From Chondrosia reniformis (taxonomy: Eukaryota > Porifera > Demospongiae > Chondrillida > Chondrillidae), in NCBI GenBank assembly GCA_947172415.1, contig OX359190.1, positions 9,548,001-9,612,000 of the forward strand: a DNA stretch of 64,000 nt, given 5' to 3'. This document shows positions 8,694 to 63,424 of this stretch, one piece after another. Both the position numbers and the translations under genes were made by a program. Each line of letters begins with the position of its first letter. Positions within the stretch are counted from its first letter, which is position 1. The notes under the pieces are model-generated. The model was not told where the DNA came from. It worked only from the letters and a program-made list of their open reading frames with translations, and searched no databases.

Positions 8694-11600
8694 ATGGCTG
8701 CTGAAGGTCTGATTTACCGTTCAAAGGCTCAGATTAAACAGGAAAAGGAAAGAAAACTCCAAACGACAAAAAGTCCCAAGAAGAAAATGTCCGCGACTAA
8801 GGGACCAACTGATAAAGAACATGTAAGCTCTATCAAACTTACATACGTATGTATCACTCTTTTCTCAATGCTTCAAGGTTTCCTTATATGGCGAGGACAT
8901 AGTGAGGCTGCCTGCCGACTTTTGTGCAGTTAATGGGCCTAGCGCCAAGCGACTTGATCTCAGTTACAACAGAATTGCGTAAGACCACTGTCGTACAACA
9001 TGAACCTTACCAGACGTGTGCACCAATGATTAGTCAATCCTCTATTTAATTATGCAGTAGTATGCATGAAAAATCTAATACACCACTTTCCTACATGCTA
9101 TGCCTACTCTGTGAAAAAGGCCTATAGGGAACTAAACCATGTATTATCCATATATAGTTTTATATGCACAAAACAATGATAGATGGATAAAGATAACCAT
9201 GAATTATGAATAACTGATTGGTAAAGACCTAATTGCCTTTCATACAATAGATAATTAGATGGATTGGTGACAAGAATACAGAAAAGACACGACAAATATC
9301 ATAACTGTACATTAGATTATGAATGAGGAAAATTATTAAGATTGCTTATATACTGTATGTACGTATATTATTTAGTTCCCTATAGGCCTTTTACTCTAGA
9401 GTAGATTTGTTATGTGTTTATAGTAGATGTGTAGTAATTTCAGAGGAGATACATGATTGGAGCTTCTCTGTATGCAGTACCTTTAAAAATGTATTTTGTT
9501 AACAGTATCAGATTGTACAAGCTACATTTGCTTGAACGAACAATTTTCAATTATTTTAAGAATTAAGAATTGTCAAAAGTGGTATGCATTTGCATTTAAT
9601 TATTGTAATGTACCACAAAATATAAAGTTTATTCAATTACTTCATTCAGCACAGCTTGTAAATTCATTCTAACATTAGAATTTATATAGTTTGCTCCTCC
9701 CTATGGCCATACTCTTACATTACAATTTATATAGTTTACTCCTCCCTATGGCCATACTCTTACATTACAATTTATATAGTTTACTCCTCCCTATGGCCAT
9801 ACTCTTACATTACAATTTATATAGTTTGCTCCTCCCTATGGCCATACTCTTACATTACAATTTATATAGTTTACTCCTCCCTATGGCCATACTCTTACAT
9901 TACAATTTATATAGTTTACTCCTCCCTATGGCCATACTCTTACATTACAATTTATATAGTTTGCTCCTCCCTATGGCCATACTCTTACATTACAATTTAT
10001 ATAGTTTACTCCTCCCTATGGCCATACTCTTACATTACAATTTATATAGTTTACTCCTCCCTATGGCCATACTCTTACATTACAATTTATATAGTTTACT
10101 CCTCCCTATGGCCATACTCTTACATTACAATTTATATAGTTTACTCCTCCCTATGGCCATACTCTTACATTACAATTTATATAGTTTGCTCCTCCCTATG
10201 GCCATACTCTTACATTACAATTTATATAGTTTACTCCTCCCTATGGCCATACTCTTACATTACAATTTATATAGTTTACTCCTCCCTATGGCCATACTCT
10301 TACATTACAATTTATATAGTTTACTCCTCCCTATGGCCATACTCTTACATTACAATTTATATAGTTTACTCCTCCCTATGGCCATACTCTTACATTACAA
10401 TTTATATAGTTTGCTCCTCCCTATGGCCATACTCTTACATTACAATTTATATAGTTTACTCCTCCCTATGGCCATACTCTTACATTACAATTTATATAGT
10501 TTACTCCTCCCTATGGCCATACTCTTACATTACAATTTATATAGTTTACTCCTCCCTATGGCCATACTCTTACATTACAATTTATATAGTTTACTCCTCC
10601 CTATGGCCATACTCTTACATTACAATTTATATAGTTTACTCCTCCCTATGGCCATACTCTTACATTACAATTTATATAGTTTACTCCTCCCTATGGCCAT
10701 ACTCTTACATTACAATTTATATAGTTTACTCCTCCCTATGGCCATACTCTTACATTACAATTTATATAGTTTACTCCTCCCTATGGCCATACTCTTACAT
10801 TACAATTTATATAGTTTACTCCTCCCTATGGCCATACTCTTACATTACAATTTATATAGTTTACTCCTCCCTATGGCCATACTCATACCATCAAAATCAA
10901 ACTAACAAGACATTTCACTTTGTTACTTTGTGATGCTGTATGTAAATTTAGGACATTGGAAGGACTGGACAAATTTGAGATCTTAGAAGAACTGATTTTG
11001 GATAATAATGATGTTACAGATGAAGCCATTTCAAAGCTACCCCATCTACCTAATCTCCATACTTTATCGGCAAATAAGAACAACATATCCTTTCTAACAT
11101 AGTCACATGAATGTCATGTGATCGTCATGTTATTACTATATGAATAATGTAAACTACATCAATTTGTTTATGAGCCCCTTCGCTATAGAGGGCTCTTAGC
11201 TGACCTGATAGAATAGAGGGCTAGTGGGCTCTTAGCTGACTTGGTAGAATAGAGGGCTAGTGGGCTCTTAGCTGACTTGGTAGAATAGAGGGCTAGTGGG
11301 CTCTTAGCTGACTTGGTAGAATAGAGGGCTAGTGGGCTCTTAGCTGACTTGGTAGAATAGAGGGCTAGTGGGCTCTTAGCTGACTTGGTAGAATAGAGGG
11401 CTAGTGGGCTCTTAGCTGACTTGGTAGAATAGAGGGCTAGTGGGCTCTTAGCTGACCTGGTAGTTTAGTGGGCTAGTGGGCTCCTAGCTGCTAATTGCAC
11501 TGAGCTTGTGCATAGACTATGATAATAAGCAAATAATGTATGTAAAGTATATATACGTAGGGCTGCATAGAGGGGGGCTGTCTAGGATTGAACCCCCTAA

Positions 11601-45334: not shown

Positions 45335-48178
45335 TTAGGTAAATTTTACTTGACTAAACCTCCTGAAAAGCTCAACTTCTGAGAATGGTAAGTGATTACC
45401 ATTGTTGGGGCTGTCATCATCCTTCTTCAGAAAAATCTCTTCCTGTTGTTCTTTATCCGATGATTGCTTCTTCATATTCTGTTCCAAAAGAACTGGGCTC
45501 CTTTCCTTTATTTCTTCATCAATTCCTTGTCCCATCTTTCCTGCAGCCTTGTTTGGCTTCAAATAGGTGGACCAGAAAAAAGTTGCAAACAGGATCAGAT
45601 AACTGGTGTACAAGGCGACAGCTAGAATAGGGTTGGCGAGGTTAACCTCAACTCGTCCATCGCAATAAAAGGTGTGGTCCATCAGGGCATTGAGTAACAC
45701 ATAAGAGTTGATAAATATACCTACCACCATTTGGATGAGTTGCATTGAGGTTAAAGTCATATTAATCCATTTAGGAGGCCGATAAGAGCCTATGGCTCTT
45801 ATTGCATAATAGGAATACATAAATGTGTGCATGAAATAGTTCATTGCCATATGCCAGAGGAAGGTTGATGTGCTGTTGGCAAAGAAGAACCACACATAGA
45901 GAGTGACAGTGGTGTGATGATACCAATGTAGAAAAATCAGCTTCTGCTTCCTCAGTACAATGAAGATGGTATCACCAAATTCTAAGATTTTTGAAAAAGC
46001 AAAGAGAATGGCCCAGACGTTAGTAAAAATAGGCAAGTCTTCCTCCCAATCAGTTTGAGGATCAATCTTGCAAACGGAGGCAAACCACCCATTTTGGAGT
46101 ATCCTTTGAACAAACGGAATTCCTATAAAGTGTGGAAAAATGAACATGTTATCCCTATGACAACCTATCCAAAATTTGTAAATTTAAGAAGTGAGTTATT
46201 AATTGTTCACATGAAATTGGTAGGGTATGCATTATATTATTTAGATCTGAAAAATGGATACATGAATGTAGTATAACAAAAATCTTGGATTTAACAGGTT
46301 TCTGAAATTCAAATGCACTAATTGTTACATTCACTAGTGCACACACTAGATAAATACCACACAGACAGTGCAACTGTTTAACAGGTAAATGTTTGGTTTT
46401 CGGTGAGTTCTATTTTTGTCTTGACAACGCCTTTCTCTGCCATGTGGTTCCATTGTTATTTATTGTAACTGTATCCTTGTGAAAAGAATTGGTTCCATTT
46501 TTAGCTACAACGTCAACTGACTGCTCTGCCTTTCTATCAACAACTGACTTTGGCTTTTTTGTGGTCATGTAAGTGACGTAAAAGAAATGAGCAAAAAGCA
46601 CAAAGTAGCTGAAATACATTGCAAATGTGAGGTATATTGAAACACGATCTTTTTCAATCTTTCCATCACAATAGAAATGGGGATCAGCCACTATGTTGAT
46701 GTAAATATAAGTGTTGATCCATAAACCAGTAACCATTTGAATGAGTTGTAAGCTCGTTATCAGCATATTGACCCATTTCGGAGGTCTGATGTGACCACTA
46801 GCCCGAATAGCATAGTAAAGATACATGATGGAGTGAACAAAATAGTTCATCACAATGAACCATTGGTCTCCCGAACTGCAGTAACCATAGCGAAAGTAAC
46901 AATACATCATCACTGTGATATGATGATACCAATGTAGAAAAATGAGTTTTTGCTTGCGAAGGACAATGAACAAGGTATCTCCCAATTCCGGTAGCTTTGA
47001 CATGCAAAAAACATAGGCCCACATGCCTGCCTGTCCGGGAAGAATCGGAAGGTCTTCGCCCCAAGGGGCCTCTTCACTAGTCTTGCAAAGGCTAACGTGC
47101 CAACCATATTTTAAGACCCGTTTCAAAATGGGAATACCTGATGGGAAATTGAAACAAAGCAGCAGTCACCTTTGAGGTATGAACAACGTGACAGTCACTG
47201 GTTGAAATCAGCAATTCTTCTTAATTTTCAAGCTCTCTAGAGAACACTTGGAATGCCATAAAAATAAGTTTCCTCTATAGCATGAATTATCAATTATTGA
47301 GACTGTATTTCTAACCAGTGTCTGCCACTCCAAAAGAAAAAAAAAGAAAAAACCAATAATATACAGATGAAAATTTAAAGCTGAATTGTGCCTGTGTACA
47401 GGGGGGTGGGGTGACAGCACTGCCAGAAATTCAGGGATGGATCTAGGGAGAAATTTGTTCTGTATACTCTGTTATTGTGACAGAAATACTATTATATCTC
47501 TGCTTTTAGCTGTTAAATATTTATAGATCACTTTGTCACTAAGTCTATAAGTTACATTAAAGTCTTAAAATTCAACATTTGACTGCGTTTGAGAATGCTC
47601 AAAGACAATCTAGATCTGTCCCTCAGTCTTTCCTTCAAAAAAGCAAATACTTACAAAAACTAATTAAAAACATTAATCTGAATACAAAGTGAATTAAGAC
47701 ATACAAATGTCACTGCTTCCATTCATACAAACACGTTTACATGACAACCACAAATTCAGAGTCACATGATGATGATGGTAACATGATAACCACAAAAATG
47801 AAAAAAAAAATTGAAAATGAAAATGAAGAAGTTAATAACAAAGACATACTTTAAACAGGTTCTCACTTTATTAGACTATTTAAGGATCTGCATCCGCTTA
47901 ATAGACTTACCAGTGTGGTAAAACCCCATAAGACTGAACAAAGCCAAGGAGAGGCTCCACCCAAACAACCAGCGTCTCAAATCATATGGTTTGCGATCTG
48001 TCATCAGCCATTGTAGACCAAAGATTATGGTGACATACAAGGTTGCAGCATAGATTGACAAGTGCCAATTGTCTTGACACCAACCCATAGCTGTAGTGTA
48101 GTTAAAACGATTTTCTAGTTCACGAAAAGTATCCATCCTTCTAAATTCCTCAGATAAATATGATTGACCAGATTCCAA
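45335..48178 (-). CDS. ELOVL3/6-like fatty-acid elongase, distal 3' exon form
   Basis: Elongases condense malonyl-CoA with acyl-CoA in the ER membrane. The catalytic exon 46122-45335 starts in mid-protein (GIPFVQRILQNGW) and has no 5' exon of its own in the 290 bp before the neighbouring catalytic exon ends. Joined to exon 48178-47911 (donor G/GTAAGT) it gives 1056 nt, 351 residues, in phase. Motifs: ILEFGDTIFIVLRKQKLIFL, histidine box HWYHH, MNYFMHTFMYSYYA, several membrane segments, and a charged tail. So I infer either alternative terminal exons of one gene or a partial duplicate that lost its first exon. Intact frame and conserved catalytic box argue against simple decay. Confidence 0.7.
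46410..48178 (-). CDS. ELOVL3/6-like fatty-acid elongase, proximal 3' exon form
   Basis: Exons 48178-47911 and 47137-46410; 996 nt, 331 residues. Exon 1 gives the N-terminus and first membrane spans (YAATLYVTIIFGLQWLM, KPYDLRRWLFGWSLSLALFS). Exon 2 has LPELGDTLFIVLRKQKLIFL, histidine box HWYHH, MNYFVHSIMYLYYAIRA and YCDGKIEKDRV. The ELGDTxFIVLRKQKLIFLHWYHH block is typical of ELOVL3/6, which elongate saturated and monounsaturated C12-C16 acyl chains; substrate range is not shown by the sequence. The tail ends with a Lys/Arg-rich stretch (WQRKALSRQK), consistent with ER residence. It shares exon 1 with the distal form. Confidence 0.85.
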
Positions 48179-49296
48179 AGTATTTATATCTAAAAGTAAA
48201 GAAAATTGAGTAGAAAATCTTTAACTGCATCATGGGAAATTCAAATTGAATACTGCTTTTAATGTCTAAAAAATTGTATATCCTTGTTGTAATTGATCCT
48301 TGTTGTAATTGATCCAAACGAACGAGATATAAAAGGATACTGTTCTACTAGTGGAAGCTCTCACGTAGTTAACCTTCAAAATGTTAGCTCTGATGACACA
48401 CATTTTTGGTACGCAAATTTAAGCATTAGTTATTCTCTGTATTTGATTCCTTCAAAAATTATTGCTTAGTTTTGATGCAGTTGAATTATGTTAAGTTTTA
48501 CAACATTGGCAGGGCTAGAGGCAAACACGAAAAATCAGGGCGGTCGCCATAATTGTTACCAATTGAATAACTACTAGGATAACTCATGGCAACTACTACG
48601 AGTTCGAAGCAACCCACCTTTGTATTACCCTCTATAGATTCAAACCTCTTGTTGGAAGCTGGAGGGAAACGGCCTTAAGTTATCGACTTGACCTTTAAGA
48701 GGTCGGCAACCTCTGGAAGACGTAATTATGTGTCCAACTTTATGTGTACACACGGGAGTCACGTTCGTTTAATAAGGTGATTGACCATTTTTCCAGTGGC
48801 CTGACGAAATCACGCGCATGTTGTCAGCTCGGCTGATGGTGAGTCACACCTCCAGCCACGCCTACCACAGAGTACGTGCCAACAAAGGAATTTCATTGGT
48901 ACCAGTTGCTGCCAAGCCATTGACTGATAAACTTTTGGGATGTATTGACATTCTTGCTTGGCATATTATTCAATAAAGACATCAAACTATACATATTAGA
49001 TGATAGGGATTTCTTCTAACTGCACCTTATCTTTGTGAGATGGCTCATCTTTAGTCTTGTGAACATCTAGTAGCAACCTCCAGCAACTACCATCACTTGC
49101 TGAAGAAGACCAGGGCCGAAACATCCACTTTCGAATTACAAACTGTCTGGAAATTATTTAATTTTTTAATTTCCAGAAATCAAATTTATGAATAATTAAA
49201 CTTATTTATAAGTGTAAATAATTAATATATACTAAATGGTCACGCATATACAGTAAATGTAGTCACTTTGGTAATATCCTATAGTAAATACATGCT
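48179..49296. other. Gap between elongase genes
   Basis: A 1.1-kb region holding the promoter of the two-form elongase gene and the 3' flank of the intronless elongase. It also contains a plus-strand TATAAAAGG (48329-48337), followed 44 bp on by an ATG (48381) that opens MLALMTHIF and a G/GTACGC donor (see findings), and an R2 copy near 49010-49130. Confidence 0.5.
49010..49130. repeat. Palindromic repeat R2
   Basis: GAGATGGCTCATCTTTAGTC plus GCTGAAGAAGACCAGGGCCG AAACATCC; matches the copy at 14425. A string with the same core (GATGAAGACCTCCGGGTCGA) occurs near 24850 and 37725. Confidence 0.55.
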
Positions 49297-50229
49297 TCAG
49301 CGATGTCTAACAATTCCATTATAGTTAGACTTTCCATTCAAAAGAGTCAACTTTCCATTTCGAAGCTCATTATCTGTCACTTTGGTAATTTCTGGTGTGG
49401 TTTGTGGAGCATTCTTACTTTCCTTGGCTGGTTTTTTGACTATGTAAGCATTGTAGAAGAAATTGGCAAAGAGGATGGCGTAAGAGATATAGAAGAACAC
49501 TGAGATAGCAACAGCTATCCAGTCAATGCCACCGCAGAATCGTCCACTCAACCATGCCCGAACTGACACGAAATTGACATAGATTCCAACAAACATTTGA
49601 GACAGTTGCACTATTGTGATGCACTTTGAAACTGTCCTTGGAAACCGTCGTCCTGTTGCAGTGATTGCATAATACATGTACATGATTGAGTGAACAAAAA
49701 AATTTATGGAACCAAACCATATTCCCGGCCCTACAGGAAAGGCATAGCTATACCAACAATATATAAAGACGGTTACATGATGGTAGTAGTGAAGGAAGGG
49801 TAGCTTTGTTTTGCGTAGGACAATGAAGGCTGTATCTAACAGTTCTGGGAGCTTGGAAAATGCAAACAGAAAGGACCACAAACCCATTGCATGTACTCCT
49901 TTGTAAAATTTCAGGTCACAGGTGGTGTGCTCAAAACCTCCTTGCTTATATTGAGTATAAATCAGATAGGAACAGCGAAACAGACAGAAAATGCTAAAAG
50001 TACTGAGAAGGAAACTCCAAATACTTAGGGCTTTCCTGAGGTCGTACGGCTTTCGCTTTTCCATCCACTGCCTACCAACATAAATAAGTAGCAAGTATAT
50101 TGCTGAAAAGAGAAACGATAAAGTCCAATATTTCTTCATCCATAAAGTAATCTTTACATCATCAAATTGGGATTCCACTTCTCGAAGAGCATAATGAACG
50201 CTTGTAGCATACTGTACAACTGAATCCAT
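49297..50229 (-). CDS. ELOVL6-like fatty-acid elongase, intronless
   Basis: A single 310-residue frame. N-terminal spans (LSFLFSAIYLLLIYVG), KPYDLRKALSIWSFLLSTFS, then LPELLDTAFIVLRKTKLPFL with histidine box HYYHH, INFFVHSIMYMYYAI, and C-terminal spans. The tail has VKKPAKESKN. It is closest in form to the neighbouring two-exon elongase but lacks the intron at the conserved position. It could therefore derive from a retrocopy or from intron loss; no poly-A remnant or target duplication is evident. Complete length for the family (260-330). It is divergently paired with the elongase at 50693. Confidence 0.9.
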   Translation of the reverse strand: MDSVVQYATSVHYALREVESQFDDVKITLWMKKYWTLSFLFSAIYLLLIYVGRQWMEKRKPYDLRKALSIWSFLLSTFSIFCLFRCSYLIYTQYKQGGFEHTTCDLKFYKGVHAMGLWSFLFAFSKLPELLDTAFIVLRKTKLPFLHYYHHVTVFIYCWYSYAFPVGPGIWFGSINFFVHSIMYMYYAITATGRRFPRTVSKCITIVQLSQMFVGIYVNFVSVRAWLSGRFCGGIDWIAVAISVFFYISYAILFANFFYNAYIVKKPAKESKNAPQTTPEITKVTDNELRNGKLTLLNGKSNYNGIVRHR

Positions 50230-50692
50230 AGTGGTATTCTAACTAAATGTAATAGAACAATAAATAATTATAAAAAGGAATTCGCAGGCAACAACCGTAA
50301 TCAATTACCTATTCAAAGTCATATAACAGTGAAAGTACGTATCTTAAATAATTATTAATCAAATTATTAGTTTACAGGATAGACAGAATAGTGGGAATTC
50401 ACTATATCTCTACTCCAGGTACAATAAAAGCTAAAAGGTCAAATTTCCAGCTCAATTAAGTAAAGGCCCGAAACTAAATATTCAGGGCCTTTGATGATGA
50501 GAATATCTACAATAAAGTATAAATGAATTAGGCATCTTCCAGCTCACCTTTAGGTACGGGTTGTAACTGCGAGTCTACGCTGAAGCGAGACCTTTTTGAA
50601 GCGTGATGTGTGGGATTGGTAAAAGGTCGCCAATATTGTCCGTATACACGTATATTCGGACCACAGAGTCGTAAGTGCGGAAGTTGCATAAA
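50230..50692. promoter_or_regulatory. Shared head-to-head elongase promoter region
   Basis: 463 bp between the start codons of two divergent elongase genes. No TATA box is obvious; the right half (50560-50690) has more CpG than the surroundings. A bidirectional promoter is an inference from spacing. Confidence 0.4.
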
Positions 50693-51466
50693 ATGGGGTT
50701 AGGTGAGCTTTGAAACCAGAAATTTAGCCTGTGTGTCAGCCTTGTAAATTTTGCACTATTTACTGTTGTAGGTTCTGTCCTAGCAACGTTTTCCAGCCTC
50801 CCGAGTTTTCCACTCTTCGTTGCTTATCTTCTCTTCACCTCTTCTGCTCGATATTTCTGGAGATTCGTCGGACCTTATGAGCTGAAGATTCCACTGTTTT
50901 TGCACAATTTAGTCTGCTGGAGTCTCAGCATGTATACGTTTGTTGTTGGAGCATACGGCTTGGCAGTCTCGGATAGTTTACTGCCCATACGAGATGCAAA
51001 TCCACCATTGGTTCACATGGCTTACATATATTGGATCAGTAAGATAATTGAACTGATAGATACCGCTTTCATCATCCTTCGCCACAAAAAGAGACAACTG
51101 TCAACTCTTCATGTTTTTCACCATTCCAGCATGCTGTTGCTTGCTGATTATTCGTATAATATATCTCCTTGGACACCGATAATACTAGGACTGGTTATCA
51201 ACTCTTTTGTTCATGTAGTGATGTATGGATACTACATATTTTCTGTATTTTATGCGCCAAAAGAGAGTAGCTGGTGGAAAAGGGGGATCACCCTACTGCA
51301 AATGGCACAGTTTCTGTATGGTATTGTGTATAGTACTAATGGTTACCTCAATTTAGGCTATTGTTTTTACTCTGTCTTGTATCCAGCTATCATGCTCACT
51401 TTCTTTTCAAACTTTTATTACAACACATATATCCTTGGGAGAAAAAGAAATATCAAGAAAGAATGA
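50693..51466 (+). CDS. ELOVL-family elongase with HVFHH box (ELOVL1/2/4/5/7-like or divergent)
   Basis: Exons 50693-50702 (only ATGGGGTTAG) and 50772-51466; 705 nt, 234 residues. Motifs: IYWISKIIELIDTAFIILRH, histidine box HVFHH (the HxxHH type with Val, as in the polyunsaturated-chain elongases), INSFVHVVMYGYYIFSV, LLQMAQFLYGIVYS, FFSNFYYNTYI and the Lys-rich end RKRNIKKE, a likely ER-retrieval signal (KKxx-like). It is shorter than usual (about 270-300), lacking most of the N-terminal region. The 10-nt first coding exon was chosen because its donor (G/GTGAGC) and the acceptor TTGTAG/GT give an open frame into conserved sequence. An internal Met at 50900 would lose the first span. Confidence 0.8.
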
Positions 51467-51697: not shown

Positions 51698-53191
51698 ATG
51701 TCAGTACCACGTGCTTGGAGGGGCTTCCCCATGAAACTGTGGCATCCACAATTCCAGCGTTTCTCCTCTCTTTTGTGGCAGTGGATACTTTGCAATTTAT
51801 TCAGAATGTCTAACATGGAGATCGAAGAGGTTTTACAAGATAAGGAGGACCCTAAACCGAGTAAAATACCGAAAACATGTCCCAGTCAAGGCGAGCGAGA
51901 TTCTGACAAAGAAGGAGCGGAGTTCACTGGGAGGCAGACACTCAGAAAGAAGAAATGCGCCCTCCTCTTATCCTTTTGTGGTAAAGACTACAAAGGTATG
52001 CAGACAAACCCTGGCGTTAAAACTATTGAGGAAGAGCTGATAAGAGCTGTGTACCTATCGGGCGCCATCAGTGAAGAAATGAGAGACAATTTAGGCAAGC
52101 TGAAGTTTCAGCGTTGCGCTCGAACAGATAAGGGAGTGTCGGCCGCTCGACAACTTGTTTCCCTTAAAATGGTACCCGAAGCCTCACTTGTTGTTACAAT
52201 AAACGAGCACCTACCGAAAGATATTAAAGTGATGAAGTTATTTAGAGCCATCAAGTCCTTTAACAGCAAAGATTGGTGCGACTCCAGAACCTACGAATAC
52301 TTTATGCCAACGTACGCTTTTGCTCCGAGTTTGAGCGAAACTACGCGAAATTTTAGATTGCATGAAGGCCAAATTGAAAGGATTTCCCAATTGTTGAGGA
52401 AGTATCATGGCACCCACAACTTCCACAATTTCACTTCCGGTAGAACAGCTGGGGACCCTAGCTCCAAGAGATATATAATTAGTTTTGAATGCGATCAACC
52501 GAAAATTGTAAATGGAAATGAGTACATTTCTTTAAAAGTACAAGGTCAAAGCTTTGTGCTGCACCAAATAAGGAAAATGATTGGATTACTGATTGCTGTT
52601 GTGCGTGGTCACGTCTCAGAGGAGATATTTGAACGTTGCTTTTTGAAGGAGAAGGTGAATATACCTCGAGCACCAGGTCTGTACCTCATATTAGAAAATG
52701 TTCACTTTGATAGATATAACAGGAAGTTTGGGTCAGATGGCACTCATCAAGTACTGGAATGGACTGGAGAAGATATTAGAAGGAAAATTGAAGATTTTAA
52801 AGTAGAAAATATATTTAGTGTTATTCTAGAAACAGAATTAAAAGCGTCTCCAATGCTGGAATGGCTGGCTACACTTAATATACATACATATGATGATCCT
52901 GAATCCCTACCACACCTCTCAAGTGGGTGTGGTGTCCCCTTGCCACACCCCTCGAGCAAGTCTGATGTCCCCTTGCCACACCCCTCGAGCAAGTCTGATG
53001 TCCCCTTGCCACACCCCTTGAGCAAGTCTGATGTCCCCTTGCCACACCCCTCGAGCAAGTCTGATGTCCCCTTGCCACACCTCTTGAGCAAGTCTGATGT
53101 CCCCTTGCCACACCCCTCAAGCAAGTCTGATGTCCCCTTGCCACACCCTTTGAGCAAGTCTGACGTCCCCTTGCCACACCCCTCAGACTAG
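51698..53191 (+). CDS. PUS1: tRNA pseudouridine synthase 1
   Basis: Converts U to pseudouridine in tRNA (positions 27/28 and others) and other RNAs, in nucleus and mitochondria. A single-exon frame of 497 residues. TruA-type fold: LLLSFCGKDYKGMQTNPG, then FQRCARTDKGVSAARQLVSL with catalytic Asp144, SRTYEYFMPTYAFAP, YHGTHNFHNFTSG, VKGQSFVLHQIRKMIGL (here VQGQSFVLHQIRKMIGLL), and APGLYLILENVHFDRYN. The first 36 residues (RAWRGF, WHPQFQRFSSLLWQWILC) are basic/hydrophobic without acids and precede a second Met (codon 37). That matches the two-start layout of human PUS1: mitochondrial long form, nuclear short form. The last about 90 residues are eight 11-residue repeats (SKSDVPLPHPS) made by a 33-bp minisatellite. 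No intron. Confidence 0.95.
   Translation: MSVPRAWRGFPMKLWHPQFQRFSSLLWQWILCNLFRMSNMEIEEVLQDKEDPKPSKIPKTCPSQGERDSDKEGAEFTGRQTLRKKKCALLLSFCGKDYKGMQTNPGVKTIEEELIRAVYLSGAISEEMRDNLGKLKFQRCARTDKGVSAARQLVSLKMVPEASLVVTINEHLPKDIKVMKLFRAIKSFNSKDWCDSRTYEYFMPTYAFAPSLSETTRNFRLHEGQIERISQLLRKYHGTHNFHNFTSGRTAGDPSSKRYIISFECDQPKIVNGNEYISLKVQGQSFVLHQIRKMIGLLIAVVRGHVSEEIFERCFLKEKVNIPRAPGLYLILENVHFDRYNRKFGSDGTHQVLEWTGEDIRRKIEDFKVENIFSVILETELKASPMLEWLATLNIHTYDDPESLPHLSSGCGVPLPHPSSKSDVPLPHPSSKSDVPLPHPLSKSDVPLPHPSSKSDVPLPHLLSKSDVPLPHPSSKSDVPLPHPLSKSDVPLPHPSD
52916..53191 (+). repeat. 33-bp minisatellite forming the PUS1 C-terminus
   Basis: Eight copies of a 33-bp unit, GATGTCCCCTTGCCACACCC plus CTCGAGCAAGTCT, in frame to the PUS1 stop. 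The same unit forms an array at 58280-58612. Confidence 0.96.
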
Positions 53192-53803: not shown

Positions 53804-54268
53804 TTACTTCTTTCCAAAAGGCCAGCCTTGCGTCTTGGCCTTGACAAATGGCCAACCTTGCGTCTTGGCCTTGACAAATGGCCAACCTTGTGCCTTAGCT
53901 TCACCTAATGCTTGGTTTCTTGCAACATGATTCAAATAACGCTGCCAGATATAGTCTTCAATGCCACCTTCATCCTCATCATCTTGAGCTACACCTTCAT
54001 CCTCATCCTCACCTTGAGATTCAGCAAGTTGAGACATCAGCTCATTGAATAGCGCTTCTTCTTCGGCTCTGGAATAGTCAGGTTCTTCAGCTATATATTA
54101 TATATATATTTATGATATTGGTATATATAGTATAAGTTGATATATGTAGTAAATATATATAATATACATATACATATAGTTTGGTAATATATACATACCA
54201 ATAACTGCACGAGCAGAGGTGGTGTAGACAACTGCAGTTAGGAGGAGAAGAATGGAGACCACTTTCAT
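53804..54268 (-). CDS. Secreted peptide precursor A, Trp-Pro-Phe repeat tail
   Basis: Exons 54268-54199 and 54090-53804; 118 residues. Signal peptide MKVVSILLLLTAVVYTTSA (about 20 residues). An acidic propiece follows (AEEPDYSRAEEEALFNELMS, then GEDEDEGVAQDDEDEGG), then a helix-like connector IEDYIWQRYLNHVARNQ. The C-terminal tail is three tandem copies of a 10-residue unit (KAKTQGWPFV) ending GKK-stop. GKK is a typical amidation/carboxypeptidase signal, so the last peptide would end in Phe-amide. The propiece is almost the same as in precursors B-D but the tail is unrelated. The repeated 30-bp DNA unit (about 53815-53905) shows that the tail arose by local duplication. Function not known; antimicrobial, toxin-like or signalling roles are possible. 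Confidence 0.78.
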
Positions 54269-54381
54269 CTTCGTACAGTTTTCAGTTTCTTGTTGAGTAT
54301 AAGGTTTCTTTAGGGATGTGAGGTGAATTGACTTCTCTCTGTTCACCCTTTTACGTATAGCCAGAGCTTGTAACTCTTCTG

Positions 54382-55957
54382 TTACTGTGTATGTGGACAT
54401 AATGTAAAAGTTGCACCTACATACATTTAACAAGCTCTTATGTGTCAAATGTACATCAGTTCCTGGACCATTAAATTTTGACAACAGCAAATGCCTATAT
54501 ACATATTATAGTACAGAATTCCTATTAGAAGTGTGTATATATAATATATATTATGTGTATTGTGTAAGTGCACGCAACAGACCCAGAAATAGGACCTATA
54601 CATCTATTTCATTACATCAATACATTCTATACACTTTGGTCAAGGAAACATTTCCCATTATATATAACACTATATTTTAAACTTGCATATATAGAGTGCA
54701 CTTCTAATTAGTGGTTTTTAATGAATTAGTACAACTTACATAATATTATACATAGACCCACTAAATTCATCCTCCTTGTTTACATACGTACATATGTATA
54801 CAGCCAGGATTAACTCATACTTATATAAGTACCCCATAGAGCTCAACATTTAAGAACATGTTGACTTCAAGCTTAAGGTCCTATATTCACTTATTTAAAA
54901 AGAAAGGCAGTTGTTTTAAAAATCTAAAGTCTAGCTATATTCTTAGGAGTGTCTAGATTACACCCCATACCTGCCCTAGAAAATAATATGGGCTGGAGGA
55001 GTGCCTCAGAAAGACAATTAGTACAAGCAGTACTATTTTTTAGAAAGGTATCCATCATGGAATCAAACAGATTGTGTTATATGATACTACAATATATGTT
55101 TTAAAAATTCTAAAGTCTAGCTATATGAAAAATTGAAAAAGATCAGAATAATTAATCCATTGCAATTAATTGCTTCCAAAATAACTTCATCTTTCATAAT
55201 ATATACCTTTCAGGTCATTTCTCTATATTTTTCATCCAGGTCATTTGATGTATTCCTCTCTCTAGTTACCATAGATACTCAAGACGAGTAAAATAGATTG
55301 CTCAAAGGGATTATATAGTTTCACAATGAGTCAAACTGATCTATAGGATACAGAGAACCTGTTAAGCATGTACTACACAACTCTCCCAACAGAATTACAA
55401 TAGCTAGGTGTTACTAATTACTAGGGAGTGGTAGACATGCTAAATCTGCATGGTAGTCCCATTGAACAGATGTAATCCAGGACTGGTACAGTTGTTCTAC
55501 TTGCTGCTTTCATTATATACTTTCTTTAACCACCTGAATGGGTTAAGCCAACAACTTTAATGATTCCCTAACACTCAATCCTTCTTCGTTCTTAATTGGA
55601 CATGTTGCTAGGTAACTGAAATTTGATTTCCATGACAATTCTTTCAAAGAAATAGAGTATAGGTTGCATAAGTATTACAAACTACATTTTGAACAGTCTC
55701 AAAAGTAAGCATTCTTAAAAATGTGGATTATACATCGCTAATCATAACATGTACAGTAACTTGAAAGAAAAACAAACCTTATAGACTTCATCTAAAGCTG
55801 ATACATTGTTTGTCTGATTCCAGTCCATAAACAAGATGACCTACCAATCAGTGTAGTTTAGGGCATGATCAATGCCTAAGTTCCTCAAATCAGTCAACTA
55901 TAAAGCTGCAGCAGCAATGGCCATTTTGGATTCACAAATTGATTGACCCCAATAGCA
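54382..55957. repeat. Segmental duplication, copy 1 (pairs with 60075-61650)
   Basis: About 1.58 kb, offset 5693 bp, virtually identical to copy 2 over its whole length; the one difference I noticed by eye is in GGATTCACAAATTG versus GGATTCCCAAATTG. It begins about 115 bp upstream of precursor A's start codon. No coding gene seen inside. Confidence 0.95.
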
Positions 55958-57158
55958 TTTAGTACATAATAAAGCTATACATATCTATATAACTTTAGAG
56001 TTGCATGGGTCAATGACACAGTTATCACCATGGTTACCTACACGAAGTACTATTGCCAAATATATCCAGTTTACAGTAGCCAAGTAGTCATGGCAACGCA
56101 TCAGATGATGTGAAAAGAAGTAACAGTAAAGCATGACGACTGAATGGATGGATCACCTCTAAAGAACATTTTCTGTTAATACTGCATGGACTCATAAACT
56201 CCTAAATATTTTGGTTTATTTTTACCATAGAACTAGTAAACCATTCAGTATTTTATTTTTTGTGAATACTTCATTTTATTATTGTAATTGCTATTATATT
56301 ATTATTATTATTATACCATAATACCATAAGTTTGCTAGTAGCTATATCAACTAAAACGTGTATAGTGCTGCAAATCAAGCTATTAAGGGGAAGTCCCTTC
56401 ACGTGACCCCACGTTTGCTCGTAGTATGCGCTTCAGTGTTCAAACTCTCGAGATGTTTGGCCACTAAAGATGTTCGCGTAAGCCTACAACCACACTCTGT
56501 GATTTCCTTTATTAGATTATTCAGCCTGCCTCTTGTTTTGAGGGTTATTAGAGTCATATATTGAATACGAAAGGCACCCATCTCATTGTTTCAAATGCTA
56601 AAGTCTAGCTATATGAAAAATTGAAAAAAATCTTTTAAAATATATAATTCCTTTTGATTTGCATAACTAAACCAAGTCTTCTTAAATTTTCTTTTAATCA
56701 TTTTTGTTTTATATGGGGATAGTTGATGTGAAACACATTATTTTTTCTATATAACTTTAGAGTTGCATTGTCAATGACACAGCTATCACCATGGTTACCT
56801 ACACGAAGTACTATTGCCAAATATCCAATTTACAGTAGCCAAGTAGTCATGGCAACACAACAATCGGCAACACATTATTGGTGAGTTTTCATAACTCACC
56901 ATGCAATCAATATATGCTATGAAGACCTCCGCTTATATAATTAATTTTTGCTGCACACTGTAACTTATATTATCAAATGAATTATATGTGATAATAATTG
57001 CACACAAAACACTAAGACTACCAAACCTACGTATATATTTGATTTATGTCCCAGACTACCTGATTTATATAGTTCACACACACACACTAAATTATGTTCT
57101 TTATGTTAATTGCACACTGAAAGCAGAAAAGTAATCCAAATCCACAACATCCACATCT
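55958..57158. other. Diverged duplicated spacer between precursors A and B
   Basis: Contains blocks repeated at 59100-59290 and 61800-62700, such as CTATATAACTTTAGAGTTGC, ATCACCATGGTTACCTACAC, ACAGTAGCCAAGTAGTCATG and GTGCTGCAAATCAAGCTATT. These are older copies of the flanks of the peptide genes. The open frame at 56358-56564 is matched at 62265-62462 but with indels, so I do not call it a gene. Confidence 0.6.
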
Positions 57159-57617
57159 TTATTTCTTCCCTACTGCGTTGGCTATACGACATGCATGGTG
57201 GACGTATGGCATAGCCTTTTTAACAAAGCCACTCACTCTACGTATAAAGCTTCCCCATTGTATCTTAGCCTTTCCATTTCCTTGAGTCCTTGCTACATGC
57301 TGGAGGTAACGCTGCAAGATATAGTCTTCAAGGCCACCTTCATCATCATCATCTTGAGCTACACCTTCATCCTCATCCTCACCTTGAGATTCAGCAAGTT
57401 GAGACATCAGCTCATTGAATAGGGCTTCTTCTTCAGCTCTGGAATAGTCAGGTTCTTCAGCTATATATATATATACGTATATATATTGTTGATATTGGTA
57501 TATACACATATATATAGATTGATCATGATAATACATTCTATCCTTACCAGTAACTGCACGAGCAGAGGTGGTGTAGACAACTGCAGTTAGGAGGAGAAGA
57601 ATGGAGACCACTTTCAT
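57159..57617 (-). CDS. Secreted peptide precursor B, cationic tail with one Cys
   Basis: Exons 57617-57548 and 57460-57159; 123 residues. Same signal peptide and acidic propiece as precursor A (DYSRAEEEALFNELMSQLAE). Connector LEDYILQRYLQHVARTQ. Tail about 35 residues from GNGKAKIQ: WGSFIRRVSGFVKKAMPY, VHHACRIANAVGKK. The tail is Lys/Arg-rich, can form an amphipathic helix, and carries a single Cys, so a disulfide dimer is possible. GKK-stop predicts C-terminal amidation (Val-amide). The stop codon TAA is part of AATAAA. TATA box at 57704-57697, 80 bp upstream of the ATG. Confidence 0.85.
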   Translation of the reverse strand: MKVVSILLLLTAVVYTTSARAVTGKDRMYYHDQSIYMCIYQYQQYIYVYIYIAEEPDYSRAEEEALFNELMSQLAESQGEDEDEGVAQDDDDEGGLEDYILQRYLQHVARTQGNGKAKIQWGSFIRRVSGFVKKAMPYVHHACRIANAVGKK

Positions 57618-57696
57618 CTTCGTACAGTTTTCAGTTTCTTGTTGAGTATAAGGTTTCTTTAGGGATATGAGGTGAATTGACTGCTCTGTGTCCACC

Positions 57697-57704
57697 CTTT
57701 TATA
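57697..57704 (-). promoter_or_regulatory. TATA box of precursor B
   Basis: TATAAAAG on the minus strand, 80 bp before the ATG. The whole 5' leader (TCAATTCACCTCATATCCC and CAACAAGAAACTGAAAACTG) is conserved among the four precursor genes. At gene A the TATA stretch is interrupted. Confidence 0.7.
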
Positions 57705-58279
57705 GCCAGAGCTTGTAACTTTCCTGGGAAGTATAGACTTTATTAAAAATCTGCATAATTTAAAACGCCCGAGTGAGTTGCACACAACAGACCCAGAAAT
57801 AGGACCTATACATCTATTTCATCACATCAATACTTTCTATACACTTTGGTCAAGGAAACATTTCCCAATTTATACAACACTAGATCTTGAACTTGTGTTA
57901 TAATAATAGAATGCACTTCTAATTAGTGGTTTTTTAATTAATTCCATACAGTAGTGCATATATAACTGTATATAAAATTGTTAACGTCTATAGCTATATG
58001 AAAACTCACAAGATAAGAGGAAAGCATTTGTTCCAAAATAACTTCCTCTTTATCATATACGTACTTTTCAGGTCATTTCTCTATGATTTTTCAGCAATTC
58101 AAATCCAACATCTCAATATTCATGTGCATAGCCTCGTATGTTTCCAATGCTCAAGAGATATAGTTGAATGTATATTTAACCATGATTTTGTACTTCTATA
58201 TATATATATATATACCTAAACTGTATAATTAATTATGTTTTGAATGTTATCAATTAAAATACGTATACATATAGTTAAT

Positions 58280-58612
58280 CCTGTCCCCTTGCCACACCCT
58301 TCAAGCAAGTCTGATGTCCCCTTGCCACACCCCTCAAGCAAGTCTGATGTCCCCTTGCCACACCCCTCGAGCAAGTCTGATGTCCCCTTGCCACACCCCT
58401 CAAGCAAGTCTGATGTCCCCTTGCCACACCCCTCGAGCAAGTCTGATGTCCCCTTGCCACACCCCTCGAGCAAGTCTGATGTCTCCTTGCCACACCCCTC
58501 GAGCAAGTCTGATGTCCCCTTGCCACACCCCTCAAGCAAGTCTGATGTCCCCTTGCCACACCCCTCAAGCAAGTCTGATGTCCCCTTGCCACACCCCTCA
58601 AGTGGGTCTAGA
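58280..58612 (+). repeat. 33-bp minisatellite, same unit as PUS1 tail
   Basis: Ten copies of the unit GATGTCCCCTTGCCACACCC plus CTCGAGCAAGTCT. Copies differ mainly by CTCGAGC/CTCAAGC. The array is open in several frames on both strands, but no splice or start context supports a gene. Confidence 0.96.
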
Positions 58613-58845
58613 TCTCAAATATGTCTGATGCATCATGGCTATATATATATATTTAGTTGATTTTAACTGCATGACTATTATATAACTATGTAAATATATG
58701 TATTAATTTTAATTTTAAATTAATCCAAAATGGCCGTTGCTGTTGCAGCATATTTATAAAGTAAATAAAAAAACATTTACAAAAATGATGTTAGAAGTAG
58801 GAATGGCAGTGTTCACTAATACATCTGCAAAAGTATCGAAACAAG

Positions 58846-58985
58846 ACAGTGATTATGTGATAAGGCTAATCATACAGAAGTTGCATTTATACTGAAATTT
58901 AAGTAACTTAACCATACACTTCTGTGTTTGGGCACACTAACCTGAAGTAGGAATGGTGCGCCCAAACACAGAAGTGCATATTATG
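58846..58985. repeat. Hairpin-bearing repeat, matched in reverse at 63900-64000
   Basis: CACTTCTGTGTTTGGGC and GCCCAAACACAGAAGTG are inverted around a 25-bp loop (AAGTAGGAATGG). The left flank (GATAAGGCTAATCATACAGA AGTTGCAT) recurs as its reverse complement at the right edge of the window, which cuts that copy. Confidence 0.7.
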
Positions 58986-59521
58986 AAAGTGTATTAGCTT
59001 TATAGATATGATAATTAATAAGATATGCATCCTTTTGCAGACTTCAAGTATTTTTAATGTTTGAATGTAATAATTTATTGTAACAAGTTTAATTCTTTTT
59101 TCTATATAACTTTAGAGTTGCATGGGTCAATGACACAGTTATCACCATGGTTACCTACACAAAGTTCTATTGCCAAATATATCCAGTTTACAGTAGCCAA
59201 GTAGTCATGGCAACACAACAATCGGCAACACATTATATTGGTAAGTTTTCATAACTCACCATGCAATCAATATATGTTATGCAGACCTCCGCTTATAAAA
59301 TGAATTTTTTGCTGCACATTGTAATTTATATTATCAAATGAATTATATGTGATAATAATTGCACACAAAACACTAAGACTATCAAACCTACGTATATATT
59401 TGATTCGTGTCCTATAGACTACCTGATTTATATAGTTCACACACACACACTAAATTATGTTCTTTATGTTAATTGCACACTGAAAGCAGAAATGTAATCC
59501 AAATCCACAACATCCACATCT

Positions 59522-59965
59522 TTATTTCTTCCCTACTGCATGGAGTACATGTGGAGCAAGTGATTTAGCAATATGGAAAATGTGGCCCCATGATTGTATC
59601 TTAGCCTTTCCATTTCCTTGAGTCCTTGCTACATGCTGGAGGTAACGCTGCAAGATATAGTCTTCAAGGCCACCTTCATCATCTTCATCTTGAGCTACAC
59701 CTTCACCCTCATCCTCATCCTCACCTTGAGATTCAGCAAGTTGAGACATCAGCTCATTCAATAGGGCTTCTTCTACAGCTCTGGAATAGTCGGGTTCTTC
59801 AGCTATATATACATATATACGTATATATATTGTTGATATTGGTATATATACATATATATATATAGATTGATCATGATAATACATTCTATCCTTACCAGTA
59901 ACTGCACGAGCAGAGGTGGTGTAGACAACTGCAGTTAGGAGGAGGAGAATGAAGACCACTTTTAT
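59522..59965 (-). CDS. Secreted peptide precursor C, His-rich tail; 5' end uncertain
   Basis: By analogy with B: exons about 59965-59896 and 59802-59522, 117 codons. Signal-peptide core VFILLLLTAVVYTTSA, propiece AEEPDYSRAVEEALLNELMS plus GEDEDEGEGVAQDEDDEGG, connector LEDYILQRYLQHVARTQ, tail IQSWGHIFHIAKSLAPHVLHAV then GKK-stop. The tail is shorter than in B and D, with one Lys but four His, recalling the His-rich, pH-dependent clavanin style of peptide. The 5' end of exon 1 departs from the other three genes, so this may be a decayed copy or use another start. Splice sites, TATA box (60052-60045) and the stop/AATAAA overlap are kept. Confidence 0.6.
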   Translation of the reverse strand: MKVVFILLLLTAVVYTTSARAVTGKDRMYYHDQSIYIYVYIPISTIYIRIYVYIAEEPDYSRAVEEALLNELMSQLAESQGEDEDEGEGVAQDEDDEGGLEDYILQRYLQHVARTQGNGKAKIQSWGHIFHIAKSLAPHVLHAVGKK

Positions 59966-60044
59966 CTTTGTACAGTTTTCAGTTTCTTATTGAGTATAAG
60001 GTTTCTTTAGGGATATGAGGTGAATTGACTTCTCTCTGTCCTCC

Positions 60045-60052
60045 CTTTTATA
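60045..60052 (-). promoter_or_regulatory. TATA box of precursor C
   Basis: TATAAAAG on the minus strand in the same place relative to the leader as in precursors B and D. Confidence 0.65.
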
Positions 60053-60074
60053 GACAGAGCTTGTAACTCTCTTG

Positions 60075-61650
60075 TTACTGTGTATGTGGACATAATGTAA
60101 AAGTTGCACCTACATACATTTAACAAGCTCTTATGTGTCAAATGTACATCAGTTCCTGGACCATTAAATTTTGACAACAGCAAATGCCTATATACATATT
60201 ATAGTACAGAATTCCTATTAGAAGTGTGTATATATAATATATATTATGTGTATTGTGTAAGTGCACGCAACAGACCCAGAAATAGGACCTATACATCTAT
60301 TTCATTACATCAATACATTCTATACACTTTGGTCAAGGAAACATTTCCCATTATATATAACACTATATTTTAAACTTGCATATATAGAGTGCACTTCTAA
60401 TTAGTGGTTTTTAATGAATTAGTACAACTTACATAATATTATACATAGACCCACTAAATTCATCCTCCTTGTTTACATACGTACATATGTATACAGCCAG
60501 GATTAACTCATACTTATATAAGTACCCCATAGAGCTCAACATTTAAGAACATGTTGACTTCAAGCTTAAGGTCCTATATTCACTTATTTAAAAAGAAAGG
60601 CAGTTGTTTTAAAAATCTAAAGTCTAGCTATATTCTTAGGAGTGTCTAGATTACACCCCATACCTGCCCTAGAAAATAATATGGGCTGGAGGAGTGCCTC
60701 AGAAAGACAATTAGTACAAGCAGTACTATTTTTTAGAAAGGTATCCATCATGGAATCAAACAGATTGTGTTATATGATACTACAATATATGTTTTAAAAA
60801 TTCTAAAGTCTAGCTATATGAAAAATTGAAAAAGATCAGAATAATTAATCCATTGCAATTAATTGCTTCCAAAATAACTTCATCTTTCATAATATATACC
60901 TTTCAGGTCATTTCTCTATATTTTTCATCCAGGTCATTTGATGTATTCCTCTCTCTAGTTACCATAGATACTCAAGACGAGTAAAATAGATTGCTCAAAG
61001 GGATTATATAGTTTCACAATGAGTCAAACTGATCTATAGGATACAGAGAACCTGTTAAGCATGTACTACACAACTCTCCCAACAGAATTACAATAGCTAG
61101 GTGTTACTAATTACTAGGGAGTGGTAGACATGCTAAATCTGCATGGTAGTCCCATTGAACAGATGTAATCCAGGACTGGTACAGTTGTTCTACTTGCTGC
61201 TTTCATTATATACTTTCTTTAACCACCTGAATGGGTTAAGCCAACAACTTTAATGATTCCCTAACACTCAATCCTTCTTCGTTCTTAATTGGACATGTTG
61301 CTAGGTAACTGAAATTTGATTTCCATGACAATTCTTTCAAAGAAATAGAGTATAGGTTGCATAAGTATTACAAACTACATTTTGAACAGTCTCAAAAGTA
61401 AGCATTCTTAAAAATGTGGATTATACATCGCTAATCATAACATGTACAGTAACTTGAAAGAAAAACAAACCTTATAGACTTCATCTAAAGCTGATACATT
61501 GTTTGTCTGATTCCAGTCCATAAACAAGATGACCTACCAATCAGTGTAGTTTAGGGCATGATCAATGCCTAAGTTCCTCAAATCAGTCAACTATAAAGCT
61601 GCAGCAGCAATGGCCATTTTGGATTCCCAAATTGATTGACCCCAATAGCA
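60075..61650. repeat. Segmental duplication, copy 2 (pairs with 54382-55957)
   Basis: Near-perfect copy of the block upstream of precursor A, here placed upstream of precursor C. Identity stops sharply at GCATTTAG on the far side. No gene inside. Confidence 0.95.
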
Positions 61651-62914
61651 TTTAGCTACATATGTGCAGATATATGAAAGTGTATTAGCTTTATAGATAT
61701 GATAATTAGTAATATATGCATCCATTTGCAGACTTCAAATATTTTCGATGTTTGAATGTAATAATTTATTGTAACAAGTTTAATTCTCTTTTTTTTCTAT
61801 ATAACTTTAGAGTTGCATGGGTCAATGACACAGTTATCACCATGGTTACCTACACGAAGTATTATTGCCAAATATATCCAGTTTACAGTAGCCAAATAGC
61901 CATGGCAACACATATACCAAAGCCTCACTTGCTAAGCACCTTTGACAACTACATACACATAATAAATGATAACCACAAAGGTATACAATGTAGATCACAG
62001 TAAATTAAGGTGTGCATCAGATGATGCGAAAAGAAGTAACAGTACAGCATGATGACTGAATGGATGGATCACCTCTAAAGAACATTTTCTGTTAATACTG
62101 CATGGACTCATAAACTCCTAAATATTTTGGGTATTTGTACCATAGAACTAGTAAACCATTCAGTATTATATTTTTTGTGATTACTTCATTGTAATTGTTA
62201 TTATATTTTTATTATTATTATACCATAATACCATAAGTTTGCTAGTAGCTATATCAACTAAAACGTGTATAGTGCTGCAAATCAAGCTATTAAGGGGAAG
62301 TCCCTTCATGTGACCCCATGTTTGCTCGTTATATGTGCTTCAGTGTTCAAACGCTCGATATGTTTGGCCACTAAAGATGTTCACGTAAGCCTATACTCTG
62401 TGATTTCCTTTATTGGATTATTCATGCTTCTTGTTTTGGAGGTCATTAAAGTCATATATTAAAAACGAAAGGCACCCATCTCATTGTTTCAAATGCTAAA
62501 GTCTAGCATATGAAAAATTGAAAAATATCTTTTAAATATATAATTCCTTTTGATTTGCATAACTAAACCAAATCCTCTTAAATTTTCTCTTTGTTTTATA
62601 TGGGAATAGTTGATGTGAAACACATTATTGGTAAGTTTTCATAACTCACCATGCAATCAATATATGTTATGAAGACCTCTACTTATATAATTAATTTTTG
62701 CTGCACACTGTAACTTATATTATCAAATGAATTATATGTAATAATAATTGCACACAAAACACTAAGACTACCAAACCTACGTATACGTATATTTGATTCG
62801 TGTCCTAGACTACCTGATTTATATAGTTCACACACACACACACTAAATTATGTTCTATATGTTAATTGCACACTGAAAGCAGAAAAGTAATCCAAATCCA
62901 CAACATCCACATCT
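61651..62914. other. Diverged duplicated spacer between precursors C and D
   Basis: Shares blocks with 55985-57150 and 58985-59340 (for example GTGTATTAGCTTTATAGATA, GCAGACTTCAAATATTTT, ATGGACTCATAAACTCCTAA), with more substitutions and indels than the recent 1.58-kb block. An open frame at 61716-62003 spans these repeats and is not convincing. Confidence 0.6.
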
Positions 62915-63338
62915 TTATTTCTTCCCTACTGCAAATCTGAGAGCATGTTTAGCTACAGTTGGACCGTACTTTTTAACAGCGCCCCATGCTTTTCTTCCCC
63001 ACCCTTGTATCTTAGCCTTTCCAAATCCTTGAGTCCTTGCTACATGCTGGAGGTAACTCTCCAAGATATAGTCTTCAATGCCACCTTCATCATCATCATC
63101 TTGAGCTTCACCTTCATCCCCACCCTCACCTTGAGATTCAACAAGTTGAGACATCAGCTCATTGAATAGGGCTTCTTCTTCAGCTCTGGAAAACTCAGGT
63201 TCTTCAGCTATATATATTATATTGTTGATATTGGTAAAATGTAATTTAATATACATTTCTATCCTTACCAGTAACTGCACGAGCAGAGGTGGTATAGACA
63301 ACTGCAGTTAGGAGGAGGAGAATGGAGACCACTTTCAT
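62915..63338 (-). CDS. Secreted peptide precursor D, Trp/Lys-rich cationic tail
   Basis: Exons 63338-63269 and 63207-62915; 120 residues. Signal peptide MKVVSILLLLTAVVYTTSA. Acidic propiece EEPEFSRAEEEALFNELMSQ plus GEGGDEGEAQDDDDEGG. Connector IEDYILESYLQHVARTQGFG. Tail GWGRKAWGAVKKYGPTVA followed by KHALRFAVGKK. Before GKK the tail has six or more Lys/Arg and no acids, starts Gly-Trp-Gly and can form an amphipathic helix with a Pro kink, a layout seen in piscidin/styelin-type membrane-active peptides (resemblance of design, not proven homology). GKK-stop predicts amidation. TATA at 63424-63417. Confidence 0.86.
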
Positions 63339-63416: not shown

Positions 63417-63424
63417 CTTTTATA
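63417..63424 (-). promoter_or_regulatory. TATA box of precursor D
   Basis: TATAAAAG on the minus strand, about 80 bp upstream of the ATG, in the conserved leader context. Confidence 0.7.

Follow-up and report, generated by a model that had tools for sequence, protein, structure and literature searches.

A demosponge multigene family of predicted secreted prepropeptides with a constant front, an acidic propiece and variable basic tails

This study concerns a cluster of four genes (A to D) in a 64,000-nucleotide stretch of the genome of the sponge Chondrosia reniformis (C2:9548001-9612000, hereafter the window). An earlier note, made from the letters of this stretch, had described four same-strand, two-exon genes at 53804-63338, and all four could be located on the minus strand with their exons and GT..AG splice sites (Table 1). 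They share one layout: exon 1, of 70 bases, carries the leader, the GT-AG intron is in phase 1 and measures 61-108 bases, and exon 2 encodes an acidic propiece and a tail. The proposed common splice phase was confirmed, the intron lying at one site in all of A-D, as was the GKK-stop end, which is present in each of the four genes. The tails were also described correctly, with WPF repeats in A, a single cysteine in B, a histidine-rich tail in C and a tryptophan/lysine tail in D. More broadly, the genes proved to belong to a real multigene family with a constant prepro part, an acidic propiece, a variable basic tail and an amidation-type end, and this design is kept in relatives.

Table 1. Positions of the exons, propieces, tails and upstream boxes of genes A-D in the window.
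Feature	Position	Strand	Remarks
Gene A exon 1	54268-54199	-	signal peptide MKVVSILLLLTAVVYTTSARAV
Gene A exon 2	54090-53804	-	
Gene A acidic propiece	53888..54090	-	last residues AKAQ
Gene A tail	53804..53887	-	GWPFVKAKTQ-GWPFVKAKTQ-GWPF-GKK-stop
Gene B exon 1	57617-57548	-	signal peptide
Gene B exon 2	57460-57159	-	
Gene B acidic propiece	57258..57460	-	last residues AKIQ
Gene B tail	57159..57257	-	WGSFIRRVSGFVKKAMPYVHHACRIANAV-GKK-stop
Gene C exon 1	59965-59896	-	start codon position = ATA
Gene C exon 2	59802-59522	-	
Gene C acidic propiece	59594..59802	-	last residues AKIQ
Gene C tail	59522..59593	-	His-rich, SWGHIFHIAKSLAPHVLHAV-GKK-stop
Gene D exon 1	63338-63269	-	signal peptide
Gene D exon 2	63207-62915	-	
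Gene D acidic propiece	63005..63207	-	last residues AKIQ
Gene D tail	62915..63004	-	GWGRKAWGAVKKYGPTVAKHALRFAV-GKK-stop
TATAAAAG box, 5' of gene B	57697..57704	-	consensus match in AT-rich DNA, chance rate not computed
TATAAAAG box, 5' of gene C	60045..60052	-	consensus match in AT-rich DNA, chance rate not computed
TATAAAAG box, 5' of gene D	63417..63424	-	consensus match in AT-rich DNA, chance rate not computed

Genome searches covered the whole assembly (15 contigs, 117,379,552 bases). With exon 2 of gene B as query, 13 family places were found: five on C2, five on C12 and three on C10. The fifth C2 copy, E (C2:9614072-9614549), lies 2.1 kb past the end of the window. Among the nine copies outside the window, four are visibly broken: two of the five C12 copies stop ahead of the tail, one C10 copy carries an in-frame TGA, and exon 1 was not found for another. 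Eight of the 13 copies (A, B, D, E, F1, F2, F3 and H) still have a start codon, splice sites, an open frame and a tail. A C12-type protein used as query added the other-frame tail pieces of both truncated C12 copies, together with two further weak matches elsewhere (expect values (E) of 0.21 and 3.0), and a C10 protein revealed no additional family place in the genome. A search with exon-1 DNA returned six places (five on C2, one on C10); since the exon 1 copies of C12 escaped it, this search was not exhaustive. Nine of the 13 copies were used in the comparisons below, the four without a tail being left out.

A correction concerns gene C, which opens with ATA-AAA rather than ATG-AAA and has an in-frame stop just 5' of it, so that only A, B and D appear intact in the window. 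The sequence TATAAAAG occurs 81-88 bases 5' of the start codon position in B-E and F1-F3, is replaced by TATAAAAA at the same range in H, and is found at 80-81 bases in the two truncated C12 copies, in AT-rich DNA that holds other TATA-like words and for which the chance of TATAAAAG was not computed. Gene A has an interrupted TATAAAAG box and, unlike B-E, no AATAAA over its stop. The Lys-Lys-stop codons form this hexamer, a predicted polyadenylation-type signal, in B-E and F1-F3 (seven of the nine tailed copies), but not in A and H. The overlap provides a second reason for a constant end, and the constancy of GKK is therefore not pure evidence of amidation. A 33-base minisatellite (consensus TGTCCCCTTGCCACACCCCTC[GA]AGCAAGTCTGA), which gives open frames on both strands, stands between genes B and C (58282-58602) and again at 52933-53184, where a tRNA pseudouridine synthase open reading frame (ORF; 51698-53191; PF01416, E 5.4e-14) continues into it at its end.

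The most conspicuous property of the cluster is the contrast between its constant front and its variable tails. For B-E, the mean pairwise p-distance is 0.038 in exon 1, 0.097 in the intron and 0.052 in the propiece, rises to 0.471 in the tail and falls to 0.000 over GKK-stop; in the 3' flank it is 0.015 over bases 1-100 and 0.063 over bases 101-300. In the alignment, the divergence begins abruptly at the codon after the glutamine that closes the propiece, and ends at or just ahead of GKK. The earlier note attributed such tails to diversifying selection and suggested a comparison of non-synonymous (dN) and synonymous (dS) rates between propiece and tail. The variable tails within a constant prepro part stand, but diversifying selection in the sense of dN>dS was not shown. 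The synonymous sites of the B-E tails have diverged as much as the non-synonymous ones (tail dS from 0.39 to saturated, against 0.03-0.085 in the prepro part), and the three alignable C12 pairs are mixed, with a dN/dS of 1.6 in the tail and 0.4 in the prepro part for F1-F2, 0.5 and 0.9 for F1-F3, and 2.0 (about nine changes) and 0.6 for F2-F3. The only pair tested for tail against prepro, F1-F2, was not significant (Fisher test on rounded counts, p 0.18). Were young copies under ordinary positive selection, the tail dS should stay close to that of the flanks; as the tail dS is high, the plain dN>dS signature is missing, and simple positive selection on the tails was rejected.

The copying of tail cassettes from elsewhere was likewise rejected, as the tail DNA of B, the one tried, matched the genome only at its own place. 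The aligned tails of B, D and E retain a common GTTAAAAAG, and hence look diverged rather than swapped. The flanks have a different history. Upstream regions pair A with C and E (97%) and B with D (95% over 260 bases), and introns pair B with C and E (95-98%), a mosaic that points to unequal crossing-over or gene conversion. The regions of gene A (about 53940-55970) and gene C (59640-61660) are 96.6% identical over 2042 aligned bases, which begin about 1.7 kb upstream, take in exon 1 and the intron and reach into exon 2; this likeness is best taken as the product of recent duplication or conversion. These observations would fit better with old, diverse tails within recently homogenised flanks, the tails being kept distinct by selection or chance; tail-directed mutation is a further, less favoured possibility. 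In one study, vertebrate antimicrobial peptide genes reportedly also have a raised synonymous divergence.

The family extends beyond this assembly. A search with the gene B protein yielded seven proteins, all of Chondrosia type, five of which are A-E. The other two, P0002 and P0006, are on a 1.36-Mb contig that is probably outside this assembly, and their tails are unlike any read from the genome copies: that of P0006 is new and lacks the AKxQ site before it, and that of P0002 is out of pattern, with three cysteines. Both may derive from an alternate haplotype, which would allow haplotype presence/absence variation. A family profile reached a further protein, P0014, at E 0.09; it shares 14 of 17 residues with a C12-type protein at the start of the tail. 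P0014 in turn retrieved 32 proteins, itself included. Three of these carry a species name, Halichondria panicea (LOC135337519, -523 and -524, each annotated "uncharacterized protein"), the remainder coming without one; to judge from the closeness of their locus numbers, these three may be clustered in that species too. When the profiles of nine Chondrosia and 21 P0014-type sequences were compared, they matched with a probability of 97.6% and an E of 2.9e-12. In the reverse direction, H. panicea P0020 found four matches in the six frames of the whole Chondrosia genome (E<=10), and all four fall in the family (E 2.3e-4, 4.3e-4, 0.005 and 1.2, gene D being the best), which speaks against a chance likeness. 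The tails themselves share motifs, namely KKYGPT in gene D and H. panicea P0027, and GWFRRA-RKVGRFV in F1 and P0014.

As Chondrosia belongs to the Verongimorpha and Halichondria to the Heteroscleromorpha, the family spans two demosponge subclasses and, barring transfer, dates back at least to their divergence. P0014 and similar proteins run unbroken from leader to tail, which might mean that they lack the intron or that the records derive from complementary DNA. No Pfam model reached its cut-off with 12 family proteins (gene C not among them) scanned at E<=10; comparison of the family profile, two tails and P0014 with solved structures gave no convincing match, and no relative of P0014 was found in GTDB genomes. 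Among the papers listed in searches for antimicrobial peptides of sponges, Chondrosia and Halichondria, a coverage that mostly excludes subscription papers, none has a title or abstract that deals with the family, which is apparently undescribed. From the 32 proteins, 26 entered the tail-chemistry set (left out were P0037, which is a near-copy of P0033, and the truncated P0024 and P0042-P0045), 24 the AxxQ and charge-correlation sets (P0015 and P0019 also left out) and 21 the alignment; P0002 and P0006 are in no set.

Across these sets, the precursors are built alike: a signal peptide and an acidic propiece lead up to [AV]xxQ, and a basic, mostly amphipathic tail follows that closes with G(K,R)n. 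In 35 precursors, the net charge of the propiece lies between -4 and -34 and that of the tail is positive in 34, H having a charge of 0. A more acidic propiece tends to go with a more basic tail (Spearman -0.49, p 0.004, n=33, uncorrected for relatedness). The hydrophobic moment of the tail exceeds that of 95% of its own shuffles in 25 of the 35, and none of the tails has more than one cysteine. A glycine with optional basic residues closes 31 precursors, the exceptions being P0023 and P0030-P0032. Overall, the tails are thus of the linear, cationic, amphipathic and cysteine-poor kind, although gene A clearly fails in amphipathicity.

The residue before the tail is glutamine in all nine Chondrosia and all 21 P0014-type precursors of the two alignments, a position at which neuropeptide precursors would carry a dibasic site. 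The boundary reads A/V-x-hydrophobic-Q, mostly followed by Gly-Trp, in a table of 35 precursors that is partly so by construction, since the guiding pattern allowed few residues; the invariance of the glutamine rests on the alignments. The same spacing recurs within the propiece. A-x-x-Q occurs 138 times in 33 propieces against 32.4 expected (111 against 27.0 without the terminal site). In contrast, just 4 instances of A-x-x-x-Q stand against an expected 32.4; A-Q, with 48 for an expected 34.2, is slightly enriched, and the counts for four further spacings lie below expectation. Of the 283 propiece glutamines, 151 have A or V three places earlier. Shuffling of nine chosen precursors singly gave values from 0/5000 to 0.06, the latter for gene B. 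In gene A, AKTQ recurs ahead of the second and third GWPF. The pattern was noticed post hoc and in related sequences. We regard the recurrent AxxQ as a candidate non-dibasic processing signal, which could mark a protease cut after the glutamine, a cut before it with formation of pyroglutamate, or a structural or cross-linking role of the glutamine. A cut after the glutamine is preferred because AxxQ sits at the tail and repeat boundaries.

With regard to amidation, the genome holds 16 Cu-monooxygenase matches, and exons of two loci were tested. Two exons on C4 match only peptidylglycine monooxygenase (PHM) structures (13 of 13 listed for each, best E 2.5e-10 and 1.1e-9); one exon on C6 matched nothing. 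Predicted exons of the PHM amidating enzyme are present in the genome. The genome also has four P_proprotein and 30 M14 peptidase matches.

Taken together, these features probably reflect a multigene family of demosponges whose secreted prepropeptides give rise to defence peptides that are linear, cationic, amidated at the C-terminus and active on membranes. The exon 1 leader, read from the sequence and not with a signal-peptide program, would send the chain into the secretory path, where the acidic propiece could neutralise the basic tail until cleavage. An endoprotease would then cut after the glutamine of [AV]xxQ, as its conservation suggests, and free tails that mostly start with Gly-Trp. 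A carboxypeptidase might trim the K/R residues and PHM, with the lyase half of the amidating enzyme (PAL), convert the exposed glycine to an amide, a reaction in keeping with the PHM exons and carboxypeptidase-family matches, and the helical tail would disrupt microbial membranes. Tandem duplication would make copies whose flanks are homogenised while the tails stay different, resulting in a varied peptide set per animal. Several observations weigh against this interpretation. Five of the 13 copies lack a start, exon 1, frame or tail, P0006 lacks the AKxQ site, and no significant excess of dN over dS was seen. Ten of the 35 tails fall under the 95% amphipathicity line (A at 0.32, D at 0.948 and eight of P0014 type), and the H tail is short and uncharged. 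GKK overlaps AATAAA in seven of the nine tailed copies. AlphaFold, given gene D exon 2 and 22 relatives, predicted three helices, one of them over the tail, at a mean predicted local distance difference test score (pLDDT) of only 56; a Foldseek search with this low-confidence model gave no match, which carries no evidential weight.

The tails could instead be regulatory, neuropeptide-like signals that act at receptors inside the sponge, with gene A, the last of whose three GWPF units would be GWPF-amide, as a polyprotein hormone precursor. Gene A does repeat AK[AT]Q-GWPF three times, the ends are of amidation type and PHM exons are present, and another predicted amidated peptide, phoenixin, has been reported in sponges (PMC9004410). 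However, most tails are long, strongly basic, amphipathic and freely different among copies, which is unusual for receptor ligands; the tail start lacks a dibasic site, and gene A alone of the nine Chondrosia tails is repetitive in this manner. We consider a signalling role unlikely. That the peptides are aimed at grazers, foulers or competing animals rather than microbes seems improbable: the sponge peptide ASABF both kills microbes and repels gastropods (PMC3210614), but nothing here points to a target, and this explanation overlaps with that of antimicrobial defence.

It is highly improbable that the cluster is a decaying, mostly silent repeat whose open frames are leftovers of recent duplications. 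Gene C without its ATG, the two C12 copies that end before the tail, the C10 copies with an in-frame TGA or without a recovered exon 1, and the near-identical flanks, which imply that duplication or conversion was recent, would all agree with decay. In contrast, eight of 13 copies are intact in start, splice sites, frame and tail, TATAAAAG (or, in H, TATAAAAA) recurs at a distance of 81-88 bases upstream of the start codon position in B-E, F1-F3 and H, and the design is conserved in the P0014-type proteins. The defence-peptide interpretation can also be carried further, to an ancient demosponge peptide system in which a Gln-directed protease acts at repeated [AV]xxQ in place of dibasic convertases, and in which the tail is kept hypervariable inside homogenised genes because conversion is blocked there or mutation is targeted to it. 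This would amount to an independent invention of the frog-skin and cone-snail design in neuron-less animals, an extension that we offer tentatively and hold to be rather doubtful.

Elsewhere in the window, four adjoining ORFs of the ELO (fatty-acid elongase) family lie at 45335-51466, three of them on the minus strand and the fourth on the plus strand. At 9668-10888, a 45-base unit is repeated about 27 times (98% matches) and creates a 404-codon plus-strand open frame that is probably not a gene. A sulfotransferase-like ORF (PF03567) and a dual-specificity phosphatase ORF (PF00782) are found at 554-886 and 7565-8419, respectively.

According to a review (PMC12466427), symbionts are credited with a substantial share of the compounds formerly attributed to sponges, and ASABF is among the few well-characterised sponge antimicrobial peptides; the sequenced C. 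reniformis specimen harboured a high-microbial-abundance community (PMC12181767). If the proposed function is correct, a host-encoded, multicopy and variable peptide arsenal would open host control of microbes to testing, contribute a number of new linear peptides and document the design of constant front and variable tail for an early branch of the animals. From the AxxQ motif, in turn, a processing enzyme other than a dibasic convertase is predicted.

Several known peptide systems resemble the family in part. According to PMC3862624, conotoxin superfamilies combine a constant signal part with a very diverse mature part and have a first intron mostly in phase 1; introns are conserved within a superfamily, yet "poorly conserved" in one passage of the same paper, and among nine superfamilies only the A superfamily has two exons. 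The sponge family differs in having no cysteine framework. ASABF of Suberites domuncula is likewise a gene-encoded sponge peptide, with antimicrobial action (PMC3210614), but ASABF has a cysteine-stabilised fold, the family lacks such a framework and no resemblance was seen. The myticalins and modiocalins of mussels form a multigene family in which the ends are conserved, the linear, cationic mature region is hypervariable and individuals differ (PMC5577615); their propeptide is C-terminal, whereas the acidic part of the sponge precursors precedes the tail. Exactly at the tail, two C12-type proteins can be aligned with the beginning of the model for the styelins of tunicates (PF17562), scoring 7.3 bits (E 8.1) and 10.3 bits (E 1.0) against a cut-off of 27 bits, and the other 10 proteins scanned gave no match. 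The acidic part of styelins is placed otherwise than in the sponge family.

A close parallel in design is the frog dermaseptin superfamily, which also has a signal peptide, an acidic propiece, a C-terminal basic helical mature part, a glycine amide donor and a conserved prepro part. There, the signal peptide ends in cysteine and the propiece in Lys-Arg (PMC3742671). By contrast, the sponge leader ends in SARA in Chondrosia and in VAYAA in most P0014-type proteins, and the propiece, although acidic, ends in [AV]xxQ. A single C-terminal basic part with a glycine amide donor was found in 31 of the 35 precursors, gene A being repetitive. As the Pfam frog prepropeptide models matched none of the 12 proteins scanned (E<=10) and the defining terminal cysteine and Lys-Arg were looked for and found absent, the sponge family is not a member of the dermaseptins. 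Its likeness to frog dermaseptins and mussel myticalins may be read as convergence, and the sponge peptides would most likely work in the manner of frog skin peptides.

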